Assembly (NCBI RefSeq): GCF_025377685.1
Contig: NZ_JACEHK010000010.1
Location: forward strand, 1 to 64,000
Length of the DNA stretch: 64,000 nucleotides
From: Anaerobacillus sp. CMMVII
Lineage (GTDB): Bacteria > Bacillota > Bacilli > Bacillales > Anaerobacillaceae
Direction: 5' to 3'
Below the pieces are notes generated by a model. That model was not told the origin of the DNA. It worked only from the letters and a program-made list of their open reading frames with translations, and made no database searches. How positions within the stretch are numbered: the first letter of the stretch is position 1; every line of letters starts with the position of its first letter. The position numbers and the translations under genes are program-made. Positions 5,374 through 28,610 of the stretch are shown here, in pieces.

Positions 5374-5668
5374 AAATGGGGAGTTAATCTTAGTTATCAT
5401 AAATGAACTTTTGAGGGGAGGGGGAACTCCCGAAGATCATTGCTAACTTACAAATTTATTATATAATGGTATAAACAACGTGTCAATAGTGTTAATTATT
5501 TTTTTTTTTTGTAAATTATATAGGACGAGTGAATATCATAATTACCTAGTTGAGAATAAGGAATTATGAAATTCATTAAAATTATATGTATAATATAGTC
5601 ATGGTACATAACTAAGATACTAAGTGGATAATATGCAAATATAGTAGAGAACACGAAGATACTAGTAA

Positions 5669-6817
5669 TTGATGGGGGAGATTTTTCTGAAGGGCTTGGT
5701 TGTTTCGAAAATAAAAGGTACAGAAAAACATAGGATTACCTATGCTGAGTATATGAATATCGTTCTTTATGATCAAGAAGTAGGGTATTATATGAAAGAT
5801 AAGAAAAAATTAGGTACAGAAGGAGATTTTTATACAAGTAGTGGTGTGCATTCAGTATTTGGTCGAGCATTTGCTCATTTTTTTCTTGATCTAATTGAAA
5901 AAGAACAGCTTCCTGCTTCGATTTGTGAATTTGGTGGTGGAGATGGACGATTCGCTAAAGCTGTATTTGATGAGTGGGAGCTAATTACAAACAATAGACC
6001 TTTACACTATACAATGATTGAAACGAGCCCTTATCATCGTAAAGAGCAAAAAAAACTTTTAAGCGGAAAAGTAGATTTTAGACAATTTGCTAGCTTAGAA
6101 GAGTTACAAGAAAGTGATTCAAATGATTTTGAAGGAATAATTTTTTCAAATGAACTACTCGATGCATTTCCTGTTCATGTTGTTGAAAAACAGCAATCAA
6201 ACTTGTTTGAAGTTTTTGTAACTATTGATGATGTTGGAAATCTAGTAGAAATAAAAGAGATATGTTCAAATGAGCAAATTAATGACTGGCTAAGAGTATA
6301 TGGACCTACGTTAAAAGAAGGGCAAAGAATTGAAGTTCCAATTTATATGAATTCGTGGATTACAAGTGTTGATAACTTCTTGAAACGAGGTCATATTCTC
6401 ACCATTGATTATGGATATACAAAAGAGGATTGGTCGATGCCGCAAAGAAAAGATGGGAGCCTTAGAGGGTATTTCAAGCATCAAATGATTAATAATCCAT
6501 TAGAACATCCCACAGAAATGGATTTAACGACCCATATCCACTTAGACGCCTATGAAATGATGATGGAGGAAATCGGACTAGAAAAACTAGTTGCAATTAA
6601 ACAAAATCGTTTTTTGCTAATGATTGGAATGCTTAAATTCGTTCAAGAAAACTATGATTCGAATCCTTTTTCAGAAAAAAGCAAATTAAATCGAGCAGTA
6701 AAGACATTAATCACTGACACGGGAATGAGTGCGGCATTTCATGTGTTTCTTCATGGTAAAAACGTAACAAACTCAAAAGCATATCGAATTTTCAATGATG
6801 ATCCATATCAGATTTAA
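5669..6817 (+). CDS. SAM-dependent methyltransferase, MidA/NDUFAF7 family (COG1565)
   Basis: About 380 residues. Family hallmarks are YAEYMNIVLYDQEVGYYM and GTEGDFYTSSGVHSVFGRAF near the N-terminus, the SAM-binding ICEFGGGDGRFAKAVFDEW, then SNELLDAFPVHVVE and LTIDYGYT. In mitochondria the homologue NDUFAF7 methylates an arginine of a complex I subunit; the bacterial substrate is unknown. The exact start is unsure: the reading opens at 5669 (TTG, then ATG 5672), and a GGGGGAG at 5674 could serve a start further in. A terminator follows. Confidence 0.8.
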   Translation: MMGEIFLKGLVVSKIKGTEKHRITYAEYMNIVLYDQEVGYYMKDKKKLGTEGDFYTSSGVHSVFGRAFAHFFLDLIEKEQLPASICEFGGGDGRFAKAVFDEWELITNNRPLHYTMIETSPYHRKEQKKLLSGKVDFRQFASLEELQESDSNDFEGIIFSNELLDAFPVHVVEKQQSNLFEVFVTIDDVGNLVEIKEICSNEQINDWLRVYGPTLKEGQRIEVPIYMNSWITSVDNFLKRGHILTIDYGYTKEDWSMPQRKDGSLRGYFKHQMINNPLEHPTEMDLTTHIHLDAYEMMMEEIGLEKLVAIKQNRFLLMIGMLKFVQENYDSNPFSEKSKLNRAVKTLITDTGMSAAFHVFLHGKNVTNSKAYRIFNDDPYQI

Positions 6818-8616: not shown

Positions 8617-8759
8617 TCGATTTACATTCATTAGTATAAAGAAATTCTCCAAAAATATTCATGAAAAAAGAGGAAATCTAAAAGAAATGGCGAATATCTT
8701 TATCTGTAGTTCCTCCACAAGCATCCCCTGCTTTTATTAAGCCAAGGAAGGTGGTTTTA

Positions 8760-9803
8760 TTGTCTACAATTGAACGGAAAAGCGAAGTGATCATCTCGCG
8801 AGCTGTTCTGGAAAAAGCATCAGATATTCATATCATTCCTGCAACTCCCCACTCACTCATCCAGTTTAGAATCGGACATCAGTTAACTTTATTTCAGAAA
8901 CTAACGAATAGCGATGCCGAAAAACTTATCTCCCATTATAAGTTTCGGTCAAAGATGGATATTGGCGAGCGAAGAAGACCACAAAACGGGTCCTTAACCG
9001 TAACCATTGAAAATGAGCAAATTAATTTACGAATTTCTACCCTACCAACAACCCCTCATGAAAGTTTGGCCATTCGAATTTTACCCCAAACTAAAGTTTC
9101 AAGCCTAAATCAACTGTCACTGTATCCAAAACAAACTCACCAACTACGAAAACTAATAAGAAAAGCCCATGGGTTACTATTAATTTCGGGTCCAACAAGT
9201 TCTGGTAAAACAACGACGATTTACTCGTTATTATTCGACGAATGTTTAAAGGATAAAAGAATTATTACCATTGAAGATCCAATTGAAAAAAAGACAAATG
9301 CCTTTATTCAAGTTGAAATAACGAGAAAGCAGGCCTAACCTATCCCGAGGCACTTAAGGCAGCCCTAAGACATGATCCTGATATTATTATGATTGGCGAA
9401 ATACGTGATGAAAAAACAGCGAAAATTGCAATTCGTGCTTCCATGACAGGCCATCTAGTAGTAAGTACGATTCACGCTAATCATGCAGCAGGGTGCATTT
9501 CTAGGTTAAGGGAATTTGGCTGTAACGAGCTAGACATAAGGGAAACTGTCATTGGTTTAGTCTCACAAAGGCTCGTTAGTTTAATTTGTCCTTCCTGTGG
9601 TACTTCTTGTTCTAATTATTGTGGACTAGGTAAAAATAGGCGTTTAGCCATTTACGAAATATTGGCCGAGCCTTCGTTAGAAGAGGTAATCAAAAATGGT
9701 GCGATAAACTCGAACTATCAAAGCTTAGCCCAGTCAATCAACAAAGGGATTGCCTTAGGTTATATTCAGGAATCCGAATTGAAAGGTGGCTTTGTTAAAA
9801 TGA
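8760..9803 (+). pseudogene. comGA: Competence ATPase ComGA, frameshifted
   Basis: Secretion ATPase that drives assembly of the competence pseudopilus for DNA uptake. Walker A GPTSSGKTTTIYS and an Asp box IITIEDPIE lie in the first frame. After an indel near 9325, EKAGLTYPEALKAALRHDPD, Walker B IMIGEIRDEKTA, the His box TIHANHAAG and zinc-type CPSCG follow. A second indel near 9785 would bring in a TGA overlapping the comGB ATG. TTG 8760 fits AAGGAAGGTGG better than GTG 8751. Both indels could be technical. Confidence 0.85.
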
Positions 9804-10833
9804 AGATAAGACATAAAAAAAGTTACGTAAGAAAGGCAGAGTTTTTAATCAGACTTGGTACTCTCTTAGAACAAGGATACCCGATAGCGGATGCATTTGA
9901 GTTATTTCTAAAGTATGAAAAAGAAACGAATGATCAGGCACTACGAATCATGCTCGAAAAGTTCCGCAAAGGAAGTTCAGTTAGTGAAGCGCTATCGGTG
10001 TTGCAGCTCCCGAAAAATATTATAAATTTTGTTTATTTTTCCGAGTATTATGGTGATTTGGCGCGAGGGCTAATAGATGGTGGGCAATTATTAAGAAAAA
10101 CACAAGAAACCAAAGCGAAGTTCCAAAAGCTAATCAAATATCCTCTACTGTTATTTTGGATTTTAGGTCTATTTTTAATTATTATGTATCGAAATGTTTT
10201 TCCGCAATTTACGCAATTATTCTCAACAATAAACGTCGAGCTCCCCCTCGTTACGAGAATGCTTCTAGCATTTATTGAATATTCTCCATTGGTCATTCCT
10301 CTTTTTTTAGGATCCTCTTTGTTCTTGTATGTTTATTACTACTATTTATTTCGAAAAAAAGACCCCTTACAAAAAGCAAAATTTTATTCGAAAGTTCCTG
10401 TTGCTGGTACCTATTACAAGGTAATGCTAACCTATTTTTTTGCTGCAAATTTGAGTTGTTTAATTAAGAGCGGCCTTGCTATATACGATTCACTGGCAAT
10501 TTTTAAAAACATGGAAGGTTTAGGATATATTAGTAAAGAAGCGGAGCAAATGATTGCTCACTTAGAATCTGGTGAAAAGTTAGACCAAGTAATCATTAAT
10601 AACACCCTCTATTTGCAAGGCTTAGCATATATCGTTGAACATGGTCAAGCGAATGGACGTCTTGATGATGAGTTGAGCTATTACAGTGAGTGGTTGTTAC
10701 TTGATTTAGAAGAAAAACTAAAAAAACTATTTATGATCATTCAACCTATTCTATTTTAGTTATCGGTGTAATTATTTTAATCATGTTTGCTTCAATCTTG
10801 TTACCAGTGTTCTCGATCATTAATGGGTTATAG
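9800..10833 (+). pseudogene. comGB: Competence membrane protein ComGB (PilC/GspF family), frameshifted
   Basis: Polytopic inner-membrane platform protein of the competence pilus. It reads MKIRHKKSYVRKAEFLIRLG TLLEQGYPIADAFELF..., with two GspF-type domains and helices at LLLFWILGLFLIIMY, SPLVIPLFLGSSLFL and near the C-terminus. An early TAG at 10757 is relieved by one more T in the TTTT run, which restores LVIGVIILIMFASILLPVFS and the stop at 10831-10833. comGC does not follow directly. A Fur-type promoter and two other genes come first. Confidence 0.85.
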
Positions 10834-13461: not shown

Positions 13462-13525
13462 AAATGTTCAAATTTCTAAACAATAAGCACGGTTTTACCC
13501 TAATCGAGATAATGGGGGGCGATAA
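13458..13525 (+). pseudogene. comGC: Type IV prepilin gene (comGC-like), cut by prophage insertion
   Basis: MKMFKFLNNKHGFTLIEIM has the class-III prepilin signal: basic leader, Gly before the cleavage site, then FTLIE with the conserved Glu+5. The hydrophobic helix that should follow is replaced after EIM by GGDNICN and unrelated sequence. The break coincides with the end of the integrase gene on the other strand. ComGC is the major competence pseudopilin. Its placement in the comG region supports that call, though a minor pilin (ComGD-like) cannot be excluded. The other half is not in the window. Confidence 0.7.
13511..13525. other. Left attachment site of the prophage (attL), approximate
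   Basis: The pilin reading loses homology after the ATAATGG at 13510-13516. The serine recombinase gene ends at 13536 on the other strand. The crossover should lie in this short stretch. The core dinucleotide cannot be fixed without attR. Confidence 0.55.
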
Positions 13526-13535
13526 CATATGTAAT

Positions 13536-15099
13536 TTATTTAATGCTCCCTGCGTATTTATCTTTATACCATTTTTGCTTCGTATGGTGCCAACCATTTA
13601 GATCAGGGTCAATAGGTATTGTTATATCTACAGGTATTTCACCGTTTATTTCTGCTTTCAACACTATCTTATCTTGAAATAAAGTAGCGCCTGGGAATAA
13701 ATCACCGACTAATTTAGTTTGTTCAAGGTGTGTTAGTTCTGTATCAAAGTCTTCAGCAAATTCTAAGTAGTTATAAACCATTTCATAATTCCATTCTTTC
13801 TTTTTCAAAGCTTCGTATTTCGCGACCAATTGTTGTTTTTCTTTTGAGTGAATTTCGTACTCTTTTTCGATATCTTTCTGTTTTTGCTGAAGGACTTCTT
13901 TTTTGAAAGCCCCATCTAAATATAAATCCAGTAACCGGTCTAACTTTTCTTTGCGGTCAGAAGTTATTTTATCTAAGTTACTAATTTGACTTTCTAAGTC
14001 TTTAATATCGTCCCTGCTTACTTCTAATTTAATATAATTTTTTGCCTGTTCTTCACCTGATAAAATATCTTTTATGGCCTGAATTAGGTTGTGTTCAAAT
14101 CGTTTGGTATTAATAGATATGTCGCAAGTAGTCTCATCTTTTAACTTCATTTTTCTTCCGTGTTTAAGATAATATGTTGGTTTATCGGCTTTACCGTTTT
14201 GATGCAAGGACACTTTTCTCCCGCAAATTCCACAAGTAGAAACTGTCCGTCTTAAAATATGAATGTTGTCTTTTCGGCGACTAGTAGCTTTATAAACTAT
14301 ACCTCGTTTATTCCGTTCTTCTTGGATTTTTTCATAGGTTTCTAATGTCCTTAATTGTGGATAAATTCCTTCGATAGTTATTATTTCACCATTTGAAAAA
14401 TTCTTTTCCATCACACCGTGGAAAGCTTTAGAGACTAGTCGTCTATAAACTAGTGTTTCATTCCATAGAGTACCGTTTGGTGTTCGCGAAATTTCGTTTA
14501 GCTTATCAGCAATTAATTTCATCCCTAATTGTTCTTCTAAATAAAGTTTATCGATATACGGTATTACCCAAGACCATTTATCATCAAGTTCGTAACGTTC
14601 TTCAGCTTTGTTGTAAATGTATCCAATTGGAGCTTTTCCCCATGGTTTACCTTCTCTCATACGTTGACGTTTACCTCGCATCATGCGTTTTACTATTGCT
14701 TTTTTCTCACGTTTAGCAATGAGGTTTTTAATATCAGAAATAAACTCCTGATCTTCGTTAGCAAGATCGGTAAGGGATCCTGGCTCAGCAATCCTAACAT
14801 TATTTTCTCGTAAAGTACTTTGAGATATTCCCAAGCAACTGTATCTAAACGGAAAGACGGTCCTGGTCAATAACTAGTACAACGTCAATGGCTCCATCTT
14901 CGACAAGGTCAAGTAGCTGGTTAAGACCTTGTTTATTTAATTTACCGCCTGACTCCACATCTTTATACTGACCAATAATATTCCATCCTTGTTTTACTGC
15001 ATAGGTATTTAATTCAGAACTTTGAGCACCAAGAGAAAAACGGTCTTCTTGTAATTTTGTACTAACGCGAATATATATTGCACAGCGCAATGCATTCAT
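13536..15099 (-). pseudogene. Large serine recombinase (phage integrase), frameshifted
   Basis: The start MNALRCAIYIRVSTKLQEDR carries the catalytic Ser in IRVST. LVIDQDRLS then continues after an indel near 14858 as RLDTVAWEYLKVL and the rest of the resolvase, recombinase and zinc-ribbon regions (CGICGRK...C), with a coiled coil near residues 390-450. About 520 residues when corrected. ATG 15099 with GGAAAGGAG; an upstream in-frame extension is ignored. It catalyses site-specific integration and excision, and its 3' end abuts attL, the normal arrangement. If the indel is real the prophage cannot excise by itself. Confidence 0.85.
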
Positions 15100-15181
15100 C
15101 TCCTTTCCAATTCTTTTATTATAGAGGTAATTTCTCTGCATAGATTGTGGTACATATTGCAAATAAAATGTAAACACAGTA

Positions 15182-16390: not shown

Positions 16391-17950
16391 TTGGGGCGCG
16401 ATGAATTATCGGATGTTTTTGAAAAAATTACAAAGTCTTTAAGGTTACCGGTCATATTCGCTGGTTCTGGACTAGCCAAAAGATATACAACCAATAGCTT
16501 TGATTGGAAAGAGTTATTAATTAAATGTATTTCTGAGTATTGTGATGACCCTATCAACAAGTATAAAGAATATAAAGAAGATGTTGAACACAGCATGACC
16601 TTTCAAGAAGTTAACAAGTTTTCAGTTAATGAAAAGATTGGTACATTTGTTGAGAAAGATTTTAATAAAGCATATTACCGCAAAGAAATTAGTTCATTTA
16701 CTGTTGAAGAAAATCAGTCTCCGCTTAAAGTTTATATCTCAAAATTATTAAGTGATTATCAATTAAATAAAGATATGAACTATGAAATAGAACTTTTCAA
16801 ACAGTTAAACCAAAAGATGCTTACAGTCATAACTACAAATTATGATACATTTTTTGAGGATATTATTTTTATTAAACACGAAAAAATAATTGGCCAAAAT
16901 ATTTTTAAAAAGTCTGAACTTGGGACTTTGATGAAAATACACGGATGTGTAACAAGACCTGAAACACTAATTTTAACTGGAAGAGATTATGAGAAGTTTA
17001 AGAAAAGGCGAAAAGTTTTGTCAGCGAAAATAATTAACTTATTCACAGAGAATCCAGTTATTTTCATGGGATATTCTGTTTCTGATGAGAATATAAAATC
17101 AATTCTTATGGATATATTTGAGTGTCTTGAAACAGAGGAAGATTTTAAAAGTTTCCAAGAAAGATTAGTCATTATCATATATGATAATGAGGTTAATGAT
17201 CCAGTAGTGGGTACACATAGCATGCAAATTGATGGAGTTAGTATTTCAATGACCAAAGTAACAATTTCAGACTTTGCACCCCTACTTGAAGAGATGAATA
17301 AGTTACGGAGAATAACCAGGCTAAGAGACATTCAGCACATCAAAGACCTAGTATATGAAATAGTTGAGTCCAGTGAGGGAGAGAAAAGAAAGCTAGTTAA
17401 TCTTATGAGTGAAGATGAAGAATATGATGGTGATGAAGTGGTTGTAATTATTGGTAAAGAAGAGCATGTAGGTGATATAGGGGCTAAAGGAATTGCAGCT
17501 GAGGATATTTACGAAGACATTGTTTTCAATAATTTAACAATTAAAAAAGAAAAAATATTAATGTTATCAATACCTTCCCTCTTAAAAGCTAATAGTTATT
17601 TACCAATAAATAAATATATTAAAGGGTCTGATATTAACTCGATAAGTGATGAAAGAACTTTACTCATTAAAGAGATGACCTCTGAAAAACTATTAACAAA
17701 CACAATAACTAAGGATTTAGACCATTATATTCAAACGGAATATTTGAGTTTAAATGAGATATATGAGGCGGATCTACCCAAAACAAAAAAATTGCACTAT
17801 TTAGTTCTAAGATGTATTTTTGGCGAAGTTGAAACTCATGAACTCCGTCAATTTATAGAAGAACATTATTTCACAATGATGAAAAGTAAACCAGATGATA
17901 CAATTATTAAGAAAATGATTATGATCTTGGATATGCTTGAAAATAAATAG
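16391..17950 (+). CDS. SIR2-domain protein, probable NAD-depleting anti-phage effector
   Basis: 519 residues. A SIR2_2-type domain occupies the N-terminal ~290 residues: FAGSGLAKRY (~23, NAD-binding), TTNYDTFFED (~150), KIHGC (~182, catalytic His) and FMGYSVSDENI (~226). The C-terminal ~200 residues contain an acidic linker (MSEDEEYDGDE) and a domain I do not recognise. Proteins of this type (ThsA, DSR2 and others) destroy NAD on infection. TTG start with AGGGGG. It is monocistronic, oriented against the lysogeny genes, and AT-rich, as for cargo genes. The defence role is inferred from domain and location. Confidence 0.75.
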   Translation: MGRDELSDVFEKITKSLRLPVIFAGSGLAKRYTTNSFDWKELLIKCISEYCDDPINKYKEYKEDVEHSMTFQEVNKFSVNEKIGTFVEKDFNKAYYRKEISSFTVEENQSPLKVYISKLLSDYQLNKDMNYEIELFKQLNQKMLTVITTNYDTFFEDIIFIKHEKIIGQNIFKKSELGTLMKIHGCVTRPETLILTGRDYEKFKKRRKVLSAKIINLFTENPVIFMGYSVSDENIKSILMDIFECLETEEDFKSFQERLVIIIYDNEVNDPVVGTHSMQIDGVSISMTKVTISDFAPLLEEMNKLRRITRLRDIQHIKDLVYEIVESSEGEKRKLVNLMSEDEEYDGDEVVVIIGKEEHVGDIGAKGIAAEDIYEDIVFNNLTIKKEKILMLSIPSLLKANSYLPINKYIKGSDINSISDERTLLIKEMTSEKLLTNTITKDLDHYIQTEYLSLNEIYEADLPKTKKLHYLVLRCIFGEVETHELRQFIEEHYFTMMKSKPDDTIIKKMIMILDMLENK

Positions 17951-19551: not shown

Positions 19552-19947
19552 TTAGTTCTTAATTGTTTTTCTTTTTTCCTCTTCCTCAATCAAAAACTTC
19601 ATGAACCTTCGCATTTCTGCTTTCTTTTCTTCTGGAGCTGACAAGTAGTCTTTAAAAAATACTTGAGTTTCCGGATCTTTTAGGAGCTCGTCTACTTTTT
19701 CGTCTAGTGGGTCTTTTGCCAGGTCAACAGTTTTATTTGTTGGTTTGTCTGTTCTTCCAAGTAGGTAGTCAGTATCCACTTCAAAAAAATCAGCGAGCTT
19801 TTTCGTTATGGCGAAAGAAGGCTCTCTCTCATCACGTTCATACATACTTATAGTACTTTCTCCTAGGGAAAAATAAATCTGCTAACCCTTTTTGGGTCAA
19901 CTTCTTAGATTTCCTTAGATTTTTAATCTATTACCGAAAGTAATCAT
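19552..19947 (-). pseudogene. CI-like XRE-family phage repressor, two compensating homopolymer errors
   Basis: Corrected start MITFGNRLKNLRKSKKLTQK and GLADLFSLGESTISMYERDE give a full HTH (helix 2 LTQKGLADLF, recognition helix SLGESTISMYE). ADFFEVDTDYLLGRTD and a charged C-terminal region follow. An A6 run reads as A5 (near 19930) and a T4 run as T5 (near 19870), opposite errors that shift only the short stretch between them. There is no S24 peptidase domain, so induction may need ImmA. It faces a Cro-like gene across four operators. Confidence 0.8.
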
Positions 19948-20106: not shown

Positions 20107-20340
20107 TTGAATAATACTAATAACAAACAGACTATAGCAGATAACTTAAAAAGGCTTCGAGCAGATAGATCTAGAGAAGAAATTGCTGCTTCAGTAGGTA
20201 TAAGTGTAAGTGCGTTACAAATGTATGAGAACGCACAAAGAGTACCTAAAGATGAAATAAAAGTAAAATTAGCAAATTACTTCGGTGTGTCTGTTCAAGA
20301 AATTTTTTTTGATAATAGACTTCACGAATTGTGTAGTTAA
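20107..20340 (+). CDS. Cro-like XRE-family regulator
   Basis: 77 residues with one HTH: NLKRLRADRSREEIAASVGI, SVSALQMYENAQRVPKDEIK, then LANYFGVSVQEIFFDNRLHE. TTG start with AAGGGGGTG. It is the first gene of the rightward early operon, directly behind the operator cluster, so it should antagonise the repressor. The intact, short, single-domain form is typical. Confidence 0.85.
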   Translation: MNNTNNKQTIADNLKRLRADRSREEIAASVGISVSALQMYENAQRVPKDEIKVKLANYFGVSVQEIFFDNRLHELCS

Positions 20341-21214: not shown

Positions 21215-22030
21215 TTAATCGATAAACATCACGCATTCACATTTATCAAGTAAGTGATGAGCTTTTGAAATTAAGATCAAAGCAGTTGTAGCATCAAGTT
21301 CGCTCTTCGGATTGTAGATTTTGACTTGGTGTGATGTTGAGTTTCGATAAGAAAAATTAATTGTCAGTAACAGATGCTTTAATGCATTATATTCGTTTTT
21401 TTCACTATCAGATTGAAGTATGTTTCCGTTAATTATTAAAGAAGGGGTTTTAGTACTGAATGTTTTTTCAATAAGTTTAGCCCCATCTGCAGTTGAGTGG
21501 TTCATTTGTCTTATTCTACTAAGGGTGCTCTTACTAGCTTCATGGATTGCATGAAAATAATTTTTTTGAAGTAGTTCAGGCTTACAATATTCGATTACTG
21601 TCGGATGAATATTATAAGGTTCTAATTTTTCAATTAGACTTTGACTTCTTTCTAAAGCCTCTGAAAATGTGTTAGTTTCAGTGGTTGTTACAACTTTACC
21701 GGCATCATTAAGTTCAAACCCATAAAACCTTAATTGGAAATTTACTTTTTGCTTCACTTGTTCCATCCTTCAGGATTATCTCGGAAAAGCATGGGATTTA
21801 ATATGTGTTGAATAACAGTAAGAAAGGTTTTGCAGATTTTAGTTTATTGCATTCCAAAACAATAGCAAGATTTAATCTTTCCATTTAGTACTTAACTTTA
21901 AAATAGAATTTTGTGTGTCGTGATCATAATAATTCAGTTGAGCAAGGATAGTAGTAATTTTAGAACCAGTAGTATATTCAGAAATTGTTTTTGATACTTC
22001 TTCAATTATATCGTTGTTAATTGTTTTCAT
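21215..22030 (-). pseudogene. TIGR02391/AbiJ-like protein, three frameshifts
   Basis: Corrected for three indels (near 21880, 21815 and 21757), one protein of ~270 residues emerges. The N-terminal module is MKTINNDIIEEVSKTISEYT TGSKITTILAQLN, ending STKWKRLNLAIV, like AbiJ-type N-terminal domains. HILNPMLFRDNPEGW, a middle region and a C-terminal TIGR02391 (Ymh-like) block follow: NALKHLLLTINFSYRNSTSH, then DATTALILISKAHHLLDKC. Such proteins are often grouped with abortive-infection genes. ATG 22030. It stands alone on the minus strand within the early region, as cargo. Confidence 0.6.
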
Positions 22031-23142: not shown

Positions 23143-23333
23143 GAAAAACCGTAGCTGATCGTGTCGCATATTACGTTAGAAAAATAGCAGAAAAGGGAGC
23201 TATACACCCAGCTGAAAAACAACCTAGATCGTACAAGTATCGCCAGCAAAGATTAATGGCTTATAAAGAGTCGATGCATAAGCAGATCAATGATCACCAT
23301 AATTGCATAAGTACTGCGCTTAAGGGGAAATAA
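23139..23333 (+). CDS. Small basic phage protein
   Basis: 64 residues, strongly basic (MRKTVADRVAYYVRKIAEKG ...). Starts inside the previous gene (ATGA overlap), so probably co-translated. Function unknown. Confidence 0.5.
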   Translation: MRKTVADRVAYYVRKIAEKGAIHPAEKQPRSYKYRQQRLMAYKESMHKQINDHHNCISTALKGK

Positions 23334-23421
23334 CCCCTATCTTTTTTACCGCTGTTGCGAAAATTGTCTATCACATTAAGTCGAAAAATAAAGAATGGTA
23401 CATAGGGAAGGGGAATTATCA

Positions 23422-23787
23422 ATGAACAGTGCAACAAAAGTCGAAAGTAAAGTCGAAATCGTGTCAGAAAATGAATTAGTAATTAGAATTTCTAACAAGT
23501 TATGTGAGTTTGGAATTCCAAGAAATCTGAAAGGGTATCGATATCTTCGCAAAGCAATCTTAATTACCTATCATAACTTCGAGATGGTAAACAGTGTCAC
23601 AAAAACAATTTACCCGTCAATTGCAAACACATACCAAGATACTCCGAGTAGAGTTGAAAGAGCTATGAGGCACGCTATCGAATGCGGGTACTACAAAAAT
23701 GTAAATCAAGAATTTCCTAAACCAAAAAACAGTGAATTCATTGCAATGGTTGCTGACTCAATGAGGGTAGAAAATGGAATTTATTAA
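23422..23787 (+). CDS. Stand-alone Spo0A C-terminal DNA-binding domain protein
   Basis: 121 residues from ATG 23422 (GGGAAGGGG). The segments CEFGIPRNLKGYRYLRKAI, TKTIYPSIANTY, TPSRVERAMRHAIE and KPKNSEFIAMVAD-MRVE align with the C-terminal domain of Spo0A, the master sporulation regulator, including the SRVERAxRHAIE recognition helix and the NSEFIAMVAD end. There is no receiver domain. Between RHAIE and NSEF only ~16 residues remain, where Spo0A has about 30. The missing part carries the SSLFGYTV loop known to contact sigma-A. I infer a protein that binds Spo0A boxes but cannot activate. Three GTCGAAA cores surround its start. Confidence 0.85.
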   Translation: MNSATKVESKVEIVSENELVIRISNKLCEFGIPRNLKGYRYLRKAILITYHNFEMVNSVTKTIYPSIANTYQDTPSRVERAMRHAIECGYYKNVNQEFPKPKNSEFIAMVADSMRVENGIY

Positions 23788-25035: not shown

Positions 25036-27024
25036 TTGAAAAGAAGTATGAAGCTGTTAAAGCTAACATTACAAAATTTTAAAGGGATTAAGAATTTCGT
25101 TTTAGATACTAACGGTGAGTCGGTACGAGTTTTCGGTGATAATGCAGTTGGGAAAACAACATTGTTTGATGCATTCATTTGGCTTCTATTTGATAAGGAC
25201 AGCCATAACAAAAAGGACTTTCAAATTAAAACTGTAGATGAAGCTGGGAGTGTAGTTAATGGTTTAGACCATGATGTCGAAGCGGAGTTTTTGCTTAACG
25301 GTAATGTTCTAACACTCAAAAAGTCATATAAAGAAAAGTGGACGAAAAAACGGGGATCTGCATTGAGTGAATTTTCAGGTCATACAACCGACCACTTTGT
25401 AGACAGTGTTCCTGTAAGTCAAAAAATATTTAAAGCTAAAGTAGATGAAATAGTTGATGAGGACATTTTCAAACTTTTAACGTCTCCAAGCTACTTTAAT
25501 GAACAATTAAAAAAGGATGATCGTCGAAATGTTCTTATGAAGATTTGCGGTGATATCACGGATCAGGATGTGATTTCTACTAATCAAGCATTAGCAGATC
25601 TCCCTGGGATTTTGAATGGGAGAAAAATTGAAGATTATCGGTTGATTATCGCTTCAAAGCGCAAAGAAATCAATGATGAACTTGATAAAATCCCAGTTCG
25701 AATTAGTGAGGTTAATCATAATTTACCTGACATTTCTTCATTGAATTTTGAGGATTTAAGAAATTCGATAGCTAACCTAAGAAAAAATATAGATGAAAAA
25801 GAGTTAGAAATAAATCGCATTCGTCATGGTGCTGAGATAGTCGAAAAACAAAAACAACTTCGAGAGATCGAAGGAGAACTCCTTGATATTAAAAATAAAC
25901 ATAGCTCAGCAAATCATGACAAGGTTAATGTCCAGCAACAAGCGTATTACAAGTTAAAGTCAGAGATCGAGTCGCTTAAATATTCTATCAACAACCAAAA
26001 TCAAAAAATTGAAGGTAATCAGGAATTAATCAACCGCTATGAACAAGATACGTCTCGGTTACGTCAGGAATGGTATCAAATTAACGAAAAAAGTTTTGAA
26101 TTTGAACATGATGAAAACTGTCCGACTTGTGGCCAATCGCTACCAGAGGATCAAATTGAAGCGGCTCATGAAAAGGCTAGATCTAATTTTAATCTCAAAA
26201 AGTCTGAGGACCTAGAGAGGATCAATAAAAGTGGTTCTTCCATAAAAGAAAAAATTGAAGAATTAAAGCAACAAAATGAAAGGTTGCGCCTTGAAGTGAC
26301 AGAACTAGAACAAAAAATAGACCACAAGCAATCGCATTTAGATGGTTTATTAACTGAAATCAAAGGCCTTAAAGAAAACGTCCAGGACGTTACATCTTTG
26401 CCTGAGTATCAAGAGAAATCACAACGCATCGAATTACTTAATGCAGATATTCAACAATTAAGAATGAATGCTCAAAGTTCAATTGACTCCATTCAAAACC
26501 AAATTAATCAGTATCGTGAAAAGGTTGCCTTACTGGATATTGACCTTTCAAAGTTTGATGTACATGAGCGCTCTTTAACACGAAATACTGAGTTAAAAGA
26601 ACAAGAACGAAAGCTAGCTTTTCAATTTGAAAAACTTGAGCGTGAATTGCATTTAACAGAAGAGTTTATCCGAACAAAGGTAAATCTTCTTGAGGGAAAA
26701 ATTAATTCGAAGTTCAAATTTGCTCGTTTTAAGCTGTTTAGAACTCAAATCAACGGTGGGTTAGAGGAAATATGTGAGACGACTTACAAGGGAGTCCCTT
26801 ACGGGTCTGGATTAAACAATGCAGCTAAAATCAATGTCGGCTTAGATATTATCCAAACTCTATCAGAGCATTACAATTTTTCAGCACCGATCTTTGTGGA
26901 TAATGCTGAAGCTGTTACTAAGTTGATTGATATTAATACGCAGATTATTTCCCTAATAGTTTCAGAAAAAGATAAAGAGTTACGAATTGAACGTAATGAA
27001 AACAAATTTGAGGAGGCAGTGTAA
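25036..27024 (+). CDS. SbcC/Rad50-like SMC ATPase of the phage recombination module
   Basis: 662 residues. Walker A GDNAVGKTT (~34), long coiled coils, a zinc-hook CPTCGQ at ~362, then GLNNAAKINVGLDIIQTL as a degenerate signature and Walker B PIFVDNAE near the C-terminus. The arrangement is SbcC-like but small. Adjacent to RecT and an MBL protein, it probably prepares DNA ends for single-strand annealing recombination. TTG start with TTGGAGGG. The stop touches the RecT ATG (TAAATG). Confidence 0.85.
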   Translation: MKRSMKLLKLTLQNFKGIKNFVLDTNGESVRVFGDNAVGKTTLFDAFIWLLFDKDSHNKKDFQIKTVDEAGSVVNGLDHDVEAEFLLNGNVLTLKKSYKEKWTKKRGSALSEFSGHTTDHFVDSVPVSQKIFKAKVDEIVDEDIFKLLTSPSYFNEQLKKDDRRNVLMKICGDITDQDVISTNQALADLPGILNGRKIEDYRLIIASKRKEINDELDKIPVRISEVNHNLPDISSLNFEDLRNSIANLRKNIDEKELEINRIRHGAEIVEKQKQLREIEGELLDIKNKHSSANHDKVNVQQQAYYKLKSEIESLKYSINNQNQKIEGNQELINRYEQDTSRLRQEWYQINEKSFEFEHDENCPTCGQSLPEDQIEAAHEKARSNFNLKKSEDLERINKSGSSIKEKIEELKQQNERLRLEVTELEQKIDHKQSHLDGLLTEIKGLKENVQDVTSLPEYQEKSQRIELLNADIQQLRMNAQSSIDSIQNQINQYREKVALLDIDLSKFDVHERSLTRNTELKEQERKLAFQFEKLERELHLTEEFIRTKVNLLEGKINSKFKFARFKLFRTQINGGLEEICETTYKGVPYGSGLNNAAKINVGLDIIQTLSEHYNFSAPIFVDNAEAVTKLIDINTQIISLIVSEKDKELRIERNENKFEEAV

Positions 27025-27909
27025 ATGAGTCAAAACGGTAACCAATTAGCCATTATCAAAAAAGATACGGTGGATGTAGTTGCATCCAAAGTAAAAGAGT
27101 TTCAAGAGAAAGGCGAGCTTCACTTTCCAGCGAACTATAGTCCTGAAAATGCTATGAAGTCAGCATGGTTAATTCTACAAAGTACGGTAGATCGAAACAA
27201 AAGACCAGCGCTAGATGTTTGTACACGCGACAGTGTAGCAAATGCATTACTTGATATGGTTGTTCAAGGTTTAAATCCTTCTAAAAAACAGTGTTATTTC
27301 ATCGTTTATGGAACTCAACTAGTTTGTATGAGGTCGTATTTTGGGACCATGAGTGTCACAAAAAGAGTATCTGGAGCAAAAGAAATTGATGCAGCAGTCA
27401 TTTATGAAGGTGACGAAGTTGATTACGAAATGGTCAACGGTCGTATTAAAAACCTTACTCATAAACAAAAGTTCGCAAACATCAATAAGGAAAATATCAT
27501 AGGTGCATATTGCACGATCACCTTAGATAACGACAACGTTTATACGGAATTAATGACAATTGATGAACTCAGACAAGCATGGAGTAAAGCTCAATTTTGG
27601 GGCAAAGACCAAGACGTTGAGAAAAAAGGAAGTACTCATGAAGAGTTTAAGCAAGAAATGGCTAAGAAATCGGTCATTAATCGTGCCTGCAAAAAGTTCT
27701 TAAACTCAAGTGATGACAGCAGCTTAGTTATGTCGCGTATTAACCGTGCTGACGAAGTGAAAGAGGAAGCATTACTTGAAGAAGAACTTCAACAAAATGC
27801 AAACAAAGAAATTATTGATATTGAATACGATGAAACGCCTATTCAGGAGCAACAAGCACAAACTGAACCAGAAATAAAAGCTACTGGAACAGAAGGACCT
27901 CTTTTCTAA
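27025..27909 (+). CDS. recT: RecT-family single-strand annealing protein
   Basis: 294 residues. NPSKKQCYFIVYGTQLVCMR SYFGTMSVTKRV is the core RecT signature, with MAKKSVINRACKKFLNSSDD further on and an acidic Gln-rich C-terminal tail. It anneals complementary strands during phage recombination and replication. There is no RecE next to it; the MBL gene immediately downstream (1-bp overlap) and the SbcC-like ATPase upstream are the likely nuclease partners. Confidence 0.92.
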   Translation: MSQNGNQLAIIKKDTVDVVASKVKEFQEKGELHFPANYSPENAMKSAWLILQSTVDRNKRPALDVCTRDSVANALLDMVVQGLNPSKKQCYFIVYGTQLVCMRSYFGTMSVTKRVSGAKEIDAAVIYEGDEVDYEMVNGRIKNLTHKQKFANINKENIIGAYCTITLDNDNVYTELMTIDELRQAWSKAQFWGKDQDVEKKGSTHEEFKQEMAKKSVINRACKKFLNSSDDSSLVMSRINRADEVKEEALLEEELQQNANKEIIDIEYDETPIQEQQAQTEPEIKATGTEGPLF

Positions 27910-28610
27910 TGATTAATATTAAAGCACTTGCAAGCGGTAGTAAGGGGAACTGTTATTACATCACAGATGGCCATACTCCCCTGCTACTTGAAGCAGGTAT
28001 ATCATTCAAAAGCATTCAGAAACAACTAAATTTCAAAACGACAAGTATAGCAGGGTGTTTTGTCACCCATGAACACAAGGATCATTCAAAATCAATCGCA
28101 GAGGTATTGAAAAGCGGAATTGACTGTTATATGTCAAAAGGTACTGCAGAAGCTTTAAATATACATCACCATAGAGTTCATAACATTGAAGCTAAAAAAC
28201 AATTCAAGTTAGGTACCTGGACGATTTTACCTTTTGAAGTTGAACACGATGTATCTGAACCTATGGGATTTTTATTTGCTAATGAAGTAGGGGACAAGCT
28301 CCTATTTGCTACGGACACCTATTATATCAAGTACAAATTTAAAGGCTTAAGTCACATCATGATTGAGTGTAATTACAGTTTAGACATTCTAAATCAAAAC
28401 ATTGAAGTTGGTCGAGTACCTAAGATAATGAAAAAACGCTTATTAAGATCACATTTTAGTTTGGAGAACGTTAAGGAATTTTTAAAAGCTAATGATCTTA
28501 GCAAAGTGCAAGAAATCCACTTACTTCACTTGTCGGATAACAACAGCGATGAACAACGTTTCAAACAAGAAATTCAAGCACTTACGGGGAAATTGGTGTA
28601 TGTGCTTTGA
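27909..28610 (+). CDS. MBL-fold nuclease-like protein, RecT partner
   Basis: 233 residues. LASGSKGNCYYI is the YycJ/MBL opening; VTHEHKDHSKS is the HxHxDH metal motif, followed by FEVEHDVSEP, ATDTYYI and a late HLLHLSDNNSD. In phages with RecT but no RecE, this MBL gene is regularly found directly after recT, and exonuclease activity is suspected from that association. Starts within the recT stop; the next gene starts within its own stop (TTGA). Confidence 0.8.
   Translation: MINIKALASGSKGNCYYITDGHTPLLLEAGISFKSIQKQLNFKTTSIAGCFVTHEHKDHSKSIAEVLKSGIDCYMSKGTAEALNIHHHRVHNIEAKKQFKLGTWTILPFEVEHDVSEPMGFLFANEVGDKLLFATDTYYIKYKFKGLSHIMIECNYSLDILNQNIEVGRVPKIMKKRLLRSHFSLENVKEFLKANDLSKVQEIHLLHLSDNNSDEQRFKQEIQALTGKLVYVL

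Follow-up and report, generated by a model that had tools for sequence, protein, structure and literature searches.

A prophage of Anaerobacillus sp. CMMVII encodes a receiver-less Spo0A effector domain with a 12-residue deletion, a possible blocker of host sporulation

Phage proteins that carry the DNA-binding effector domain of the sporulation regulator Spo0A and no receiver domain are already known. Schwartz et al. (2023) described 29 virome homologues of this kind, and in the available part of their text the authors suggest that these proteins may do without host signals (PMC10294663); loss of the segment that contacts sigma-A is not mentioned in that part, and the alignment in its Fig. 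2b may show gaps. The best five rows of a BFVD search are likewise phage proteins named Spo0A, of 98-163 amino acids (aa). Here we analyzed the first 64,000 nucleotides (forward strand) of contig NZ_JACEHK010000010.1 of Anaerobacillus sp. CMMVII (assembly GCF_025377685.1), hereafter the window, in which a prophage gene at 23422-23787 encodes such a domain with a further loss of 12 residues. A preliminary description of this gene knew of no published phage protein with exactly this architecture: the receiver-less form is in print, and it is the missing sigma-A segment that is the newer part. Among the titles and abstract openings in the literature searched, a search that left most subscription papers and preprints outside its scope, PMC10294663 alone deals with phage homologues of Spo0A, and no phage Spo0A without the sigma-A segment is named.

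Two other systems tie mobile elements to Spo0A. DevI of the element ICEBs1 lowers sporulation, likely through Spo0A; it is an 86-aa protein for which motif and structure searches were uninformative, and no Spo0A domain is reported in the portion of the paper at hand (PMC8032392). In phage phi29 Spo0A is connected with phage transcription, as host Spo0A was reported to suspend lysis (PMC9437464, citing Meijer 2005); this phage carries sites for the host protein, and a Spo0A of its own is not mentioned in the available text. Compared with the host-type protein (NCBIfam equivalog TIGR02875), the product of the CMMVII prophage shares the effector domain, the recognition helix and the C-terminal helix, but has no receiver, is 12 residues shorter within the effector domain and scores 111.1 bits, under the cut-off of 200. 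The gene and the relevant parts of its product are as follows.

23422..23787, + strand: receiver-less Spo0A effector-domain gene, 121 aa (Pfam profile and ribosome-site-like stretch)
23644..23700, + strand: modelled helix of residues 75-93, holding the recognition helix SRVERAMRHAIE (secondary structure of the model; 11 of 12 residues identical to host Spo0A)
23695..23700, + strand: site of the 12-residue deletion, between Lys92 and Asn93, where host GNIESISSLFGY is missing (pairwise alignment)
23728..23772, + strand: C-terminal helix of residues 103-117 (NSEFIAMVADSMRVE), retained (model and host alignment; region named in the available part of PMC8102284, placement presumed)

The open reading frame (ORF) extends from an ATG at 23395 (130 aa), but we favor the start at ATG 23422 (121 aa), as in the preliminary description, because a Shine-Dalgarno-like AAGGGGA lies just upstream of it. 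The protein matches Pfam Spo0A_C (PF08769) over profile positions 1-103 of 104 (E 6.1e-28; 97.3 bits against a gathering score of 25) and, in a sequence search, the solved Spo0A-C structures PDB 1fc3 (E 9e-26) and 1lq1 (E 4.8e-24), while its two PHROGs matches, 37855 and 24603, are families of unknown function. The predicted structure has the Spo0A-C fold with high confidence and the recognition helix in place. The residue-for-residue alignment proposed earlier is right in its register; identity to the host is 11/12 for SRVERAMRHAIE, 10/10 for NSEFIAMVAD and two thirds (6/9) for TKTIYPSIA.

No receiver was found in the ORF, and the host receiver used as tblastn query against the whole window gave a best E of only 1.1, so that none was found in another upstream frame either; the 141-aa ORF upstream of the gene has no Pfam match. 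The phage domain is 44-48% identical in amino acids to the C domain of host Spo0A, and the best DNA match of the gene to host spo0A is 29 bp; with an identity of 44% and so short a match, an assembly error or a host fragment is rejected, an origin that the preliminary description had named as one that would refute its reading. The host has its own full-length spo0A at 112.8 kb of the same contig, with TGTCGAA boxes upstream, as well as spoIIGA, broken in this assembly, and is probably a spore-former.

Between RHAIE and NSEF the phage protein has 15 residues, against 27 in the canonical domain (56%, the "about half" noticed at the outset), and both alignment A1 and the pairwise comparison with host Spo0A place the difference in an exact in-frame gap of 12 residues opposite host GNIESISSLFGY. 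In the numbering of Bacillus subtilis Spo0A we take the missing residues to be about 227-238; the sigma-A activator residues of Spo0A are said to have been placed by Hatt and Youngman in 1998 at about 227-240. The preliminary description had placed the residues needed to activate sigma-A in this segment, which agrees with this approximate numbering. The available part of PMC4690370 names the region without residue numbers, and reports that B. subtilis mutants in it are asporogenous, their activity at sigma-A promoters being weak or absent. It also describes Clostridium pasteurianum M150B, an evolved laboratory mutant, in which the chromosomal, non-phage spo0A has lost eight residues in frame in this region; the strain does not form spores and carries 66 further substitutions. 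A review (PMC8102284, available in part) names both sigma-A and sigma-H activator regions, and states that removal of most of spo0A from C. pasteurianum reproduces the phenotype of the M150B deletion. The retained C-terminal helix of the phage protein would correspond to the sigma-H activator region.

A search of IMG/VR gave 57 loci, whose phage status is as assigned by that collection. Many of them hold a standalone Spo0A_C gene, with products in the range of about 100-230 aa (counted here after exclusion of contig-end fragments and receiver-bearing loci). Alignment A2 of 24 standalone sequences, the window protein included, contains 13 with the canonical segment, two longer ones (L080, +1; L086, +4) and nine shortened ones, which occupy, of 26 canonical columns, 14 in the window protein, 11 in L057, 13 in L067, 20 in L069, 23 in L073, 22 in L078, 6 in L089 and 19 in each of L092 and L093. 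Among seven further standalone ORFs (L064, L070, L077, L084, L087, L088 and L095) six read 27 residues and L095 22, so that 10 of 31 sequences are shortened overall, with the near duplicates L064 and L070 included in the total. In contrast, the segment measures exactly 27 in 81/81 distinct receiver-bearing proteins by motif count, a set defined as those matching the motifs of the script; the receiver-bearing L066 and L076, outside this set, are canonical in the alignment. The difference between 9/24 and the receiver-bearing set gives a Fisher P of 4e-7, relatedness being ignored (Fisher tests cover the 9/24 and 6/23 sets, not the 31).

A tree built without the segment columns groups the window protein with L057 (93/86, below the star mark); L067 adjoins them weakly (82/19), L089 is placed elsewhere, and several rows have long branches. 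On this tree at least six changes are needed for the nine shortened rows and four for the seven with larger losses. In the approximately unbiased (AU) test, with groups chosen after the tree was seen, a single clade was not rejected for the four most shortened proteins (window, L057, L067 and L089; p 0.108) nor for the seven with larger losses (p 0.095), and was rejected for all nine (p 0.011). Repeated loss of the segment in the standalone family is thus likely rather than certain.

Taking these observations together, we tentatively propose, at a little under an even chance, that the phage protein is a phosphorylation-independent Spo0A effector domain without the sigma-A contact segment which blocks host sporulation at 0A boxes. 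The conserved recognition helix and the predicted fold suggest that it would bind these boxes, and isolated Spo0A DNA-binding domains are reported to bind their targets without phosphorylation (PMC3485338, available in part). The protein would be produced from the early region of the prophage and occupy host 0A boxes independently of phosphorylation, in competition with phosphorylated host Spo0A (Spo0A~P), for instance at the spoIIG and spoIIE promoters. Sporulation requires sigma-A promoters such as these two. Without the sigma-A contact, a domain still able to read 0A boxes would be expected to repress or block rather than activate: repressor and blocking activity would be retained, sigma-A RNA polymerase would be neither recruited nor activated, and the cell would be prevented from sporulating for as long as the phage exploits it. 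The preliminary description had foreseen an inhibitor of sporulation and of other Spo0A output; this is too broad, as the sigma-A promoters of sporulation would likely be blocked selectively in the infected or induced cell, with repression of the abrB type, and possibly action at sigma-H promoters, mimicked. A bolder version, about which we are doubtful, is that phages made a natural dominant-negative Spo0A, perhaps more than once, by dropping first the receiver and then the sigma-A contact segment, leaving a protein that binds and represses with no commitment to sporulation.

Several points weigh against the proposed block of sporulation. The protein and the host domain differ at more than half of their residues, a divergence that may have shifted site preference or dimerisation; equating the 12 missing residues with the activator depends on approximate residue numbers. 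The M150B case gives no proof that DNA binding survives such a loss, because of its other substitutions and because the phenotype is the same without most of spo0A. As 21 of the 31 standalone proteins keep the segment, its loss is not needed for the role of the family. Upstream of host spoIIGA there is no TGTCGAA and one GTCGAA, a result of little weight in so badly assembled a stretch, and the short copy was found in none of six further genomes of the genus, which are 62-100% complete.

The protein could instead regulate the early genes of the phage itself, binding 0A-like sites in phage DNA and repressing its own gene and neighbors, much as an additional Cro would, or as an internal form of the phi29 control in which host Spo0A sites serve to suspend lysis (PMC9437464, from the part available). 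The signals that bear on this lie around the gene start:

23323..23338, + strand: terminator-like hairpin with ATCTTTTTTA after it, in the interval from the upstream ORF to the gene (1 found, shuffle mean 0.3)
23379..23386, + strand: 0A-box-like AGTCGAAA (core GTCGAA) upstream of the gene (pattern scan)
23439..23446, + strand: 0A-box-like AGTCGAAA in the first codons, also within the coding repeat KVESKVEI
23451..23458, + strand: 0A-box-like AGTCGAAA in the first codons, also within the coding repeat KVESKVEI

Three of the five copies of AGTCGAAA in the window thus fall within 80 bp (simulated P 0.011 for such a cluster among 26 GTCGAA sites), nine of the 26 GTCGAA lie in the 5 kb between 20887 and 25840 (simulated P 0.0076), and the hairpin (-8.2 kcal/mol, z -1.6) divides the gene from the upstream ORF; no promoter-like site was found on the + strand between hairpin and start codon at the scan threshold. 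However, these GTCGAA windows were picked after inspection of the data, and once the pair that falls within the coding repeat is removed the regional excess is no longer significant (P 0.10 for 5 kb, 0.30 for 3 kb). TGTCGAA is not enriched over the window (9 seen, 7.9 expected), and near the gene starts of 29 other standalone loci there are two GTCGAA against 3.0 expected, so that autoregulation through 0A boxes across the family is unsupported. Because sites in the coding repeat carry the excess and no excess appears near the gene in the other 29 loci, we keep autoregulation as a rather unlikely rival and not as a finding.

A role as replication or recombination helper is unlikely as well, and would have the protein partner the SbcC-RecT-hydrolase module that follows its gene, or repress initiation of the host chromosome through 0A boxes of oriC that overlap DnaA boxes, oriC 0A boxes being bound by Spo0A~P in B. 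subtilis (PMC5295017, available in part). In BLAST searches with proteins of the window, genes similar to sbcC, recT or the hydrolase were present in the fetched DNA of 11/29 standalone loci and of 0/33 other IMG/VR loci, and in L071 the sbcC match stops at the start of the Spo0A_C gene. The 33 loci (17 end fragments, 5 full-size spo0A and 11 chance pattern matches) are not matched early regions, though, any early gene might have such neighbors, L070 and L071 are near duplicates, and the protein has no sequence link to replication proteins. Ten neighbor proteins compared with PHROGs included SbcC-like proteins in L059 and L062, a Sak4-like protein in L085, an Erf-like one in L060 and a ParB-like one in L057, a DNA methyltransferase, a terminase small subunit and one unmatched protein in L067, a family of unknown function in L089 and an unmatched neighbor in L074. 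Such surroundings suggest early lytic expression and do not point to the role of the protein.

Simple decay of an acquired spo0A fragment into a functionless gene seems improbable to us: no close relative was found in IMG/VR or the genome contigs, and several ORFs of this assembly look broken, but the frame is intact with a good ribosome site, the loss is in frame, the DNA-reading helix is conserved and the fold confidently predicted, and distantly related short-segment genes occur in other viral contigs. Very improbable is a partial Spo0A mimic that activates selectively with sigma-H and pushes the host to the transition state or into spores, aiding entry of phage DNA into spores. Binding of receiver-less Spo0A-C without phosphate (PMC3485338, as above) would allow it, while the spoIIG and spoIIE sigma-A promoters needed for sporulation are those that the phage protein should not activate, and the scans of window proteins revealed no recognisable partition gene.

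That the gene belongs to a prophage, as first described, is borne out by integrase, repressor, DnaD-like initiator, terminase, portal, capsid, tail and endolysin/lysis genes in the window. Its remaining features are listed here.

13524..13532, no strand: probable left attachment core AACATATGT, inside comGC (second copy at contig 65084, past the window end)
13536..15177, - strand: large serine integrase in two overlapping ORFs (phrog_95 positions 175-560 and 71-169)
19552..19845, - strand: phage repressor-like regulator (phrog_8, E 2.3e-9)
20107..20340, + strand: Cro-like regulator, by position at the head of the rightward early region (phrog_8, E 7.3e-11; phrog_4, E 1.1e-10)
25036..27024, + strand: SbcC-like protein of the early recombination module (phrog_77, E 8.8e-87)
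27025..27909, + strand: RecT-like annealing protein (PF03837, E 1.2e-41)
27909..28610, + strand: metal-dependent hydrolase of the SbcC-RecT module (phrog_392, E 1.3e-85)

The Spo0A_C gene is placed in this rightward early region, with the Cro-like gene before it and SbcC after it. Insertion of the prophage has interrupted comGC: the prepilin leader GFTLIEIM stands at the end of the left flank and the right flank picks up with FIEMMIVLMIISILLLVAIPN at about 65.1 kb of the contig, where there are ORF matches to ComGC (74.3 bits against a cut-off of 75) and to ComGD. The core AACATATGT is present at both junctions, and further 9-bp matches turned up elsewhere in the same comparison. The element also carries a SIR2-like protein (16391-17950, +; PADLOC PDC-S25, E 7e-115), a candidate anti-phage defence gene, and in the early region near the Spo0A_C gene an ORF (21215-21766, -) whose product aligns with the C-terminal portion of PD-Lambda-3_B (E 1.5e-35) and, weakly, with Aga_HEPN. 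A tyrosine integrase (PF00589; 55213-56208, +) lies within the tail gene block, the prophage's own integrase being of the serine type. comGA (8751-10759, its end running into comGB), the serine integrase (13536-15177) and host spoIIGA (host contig C16, 1163-2051) each appear interrupted by frame changes, a pattern suggestive of assembly indel errors or real decay.

Neither IMG/VR (query P0001) nor the genome contigs yielded a close relative of the phage gene, nor did a DNA comparison of window positions 22001-46000 with the phage collection; the single genome-contig match, L126 from a Hydrogenedentes metagenome-assembled genome, is no relative (tblastn E 0.88). In the phage collection 8 of 13 matches were examined, seven being frames 255-292 aa long whose N terminus resembles a receiver, the other (L017) one of 175 aa, and in the plasmid collection both of the two examined (of four) are annotated full-length spo0A. 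A DNA-pattern search for other short-segment genes returned L057 as the one real case, the 11 other loci being chance. Among the matches listed in order- and class-level searches nearly all frames are full-length in size; at least 10 of 397 genomes of the order have two places each, and nine of those ten and five class genomes were reread.

Other forms of the domain were noted on the way. Locus L092 has two Spo0A_C matches in tandem (5622-5861 and 6001-6339), just 5' of sbcC, recT and the hydrolase. Receiver-less Spo0A_C proteins of 175-177 aa occur in three species of one genus (L187, 6987-7514, in G041; L188, 6854-7384, in G111; L180 in G235), and the neighbor ORFs of L187 and L188 look by eye like ordinary chromosomal genes; a 190-aa protein without receiver (L189, 7140-7712, in G386) has Spo0A_C after an N-terminal CPKC...CHIC that appears zinc-ribbon-like by eye. 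IMG/VR contig 3300036816_000007 carries a perfect direct repeat of the spo0A 3' end, 127 bp, at both ends (L083, 6093-6219; L100, 1-127), with a tyrosine integrase (PF00589) beside it, and contig 3300028454_000545 (L108, L103) one of 117 bp, also at both ends; further loci among L098-L114, close to the end of a contig or locus, likewise match Spo0A in its final portion alone. For some prophages the host spo0A 3' end seems to serve as attachment site, with the prophage supplying a substitute end.

If the proposed block of sporulation is true, one small phage protein would halt escape of the host into dormancy by parting Spo0A binding from Spo0A activation, and the same protein would serve as a tool to sort the in vivo effects of Spo0A into repression and sigma-A activation. 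The length of the segment, so constant in receiver-bearing Spo0A, offers a simple marker to find such proteins in phage genomes.
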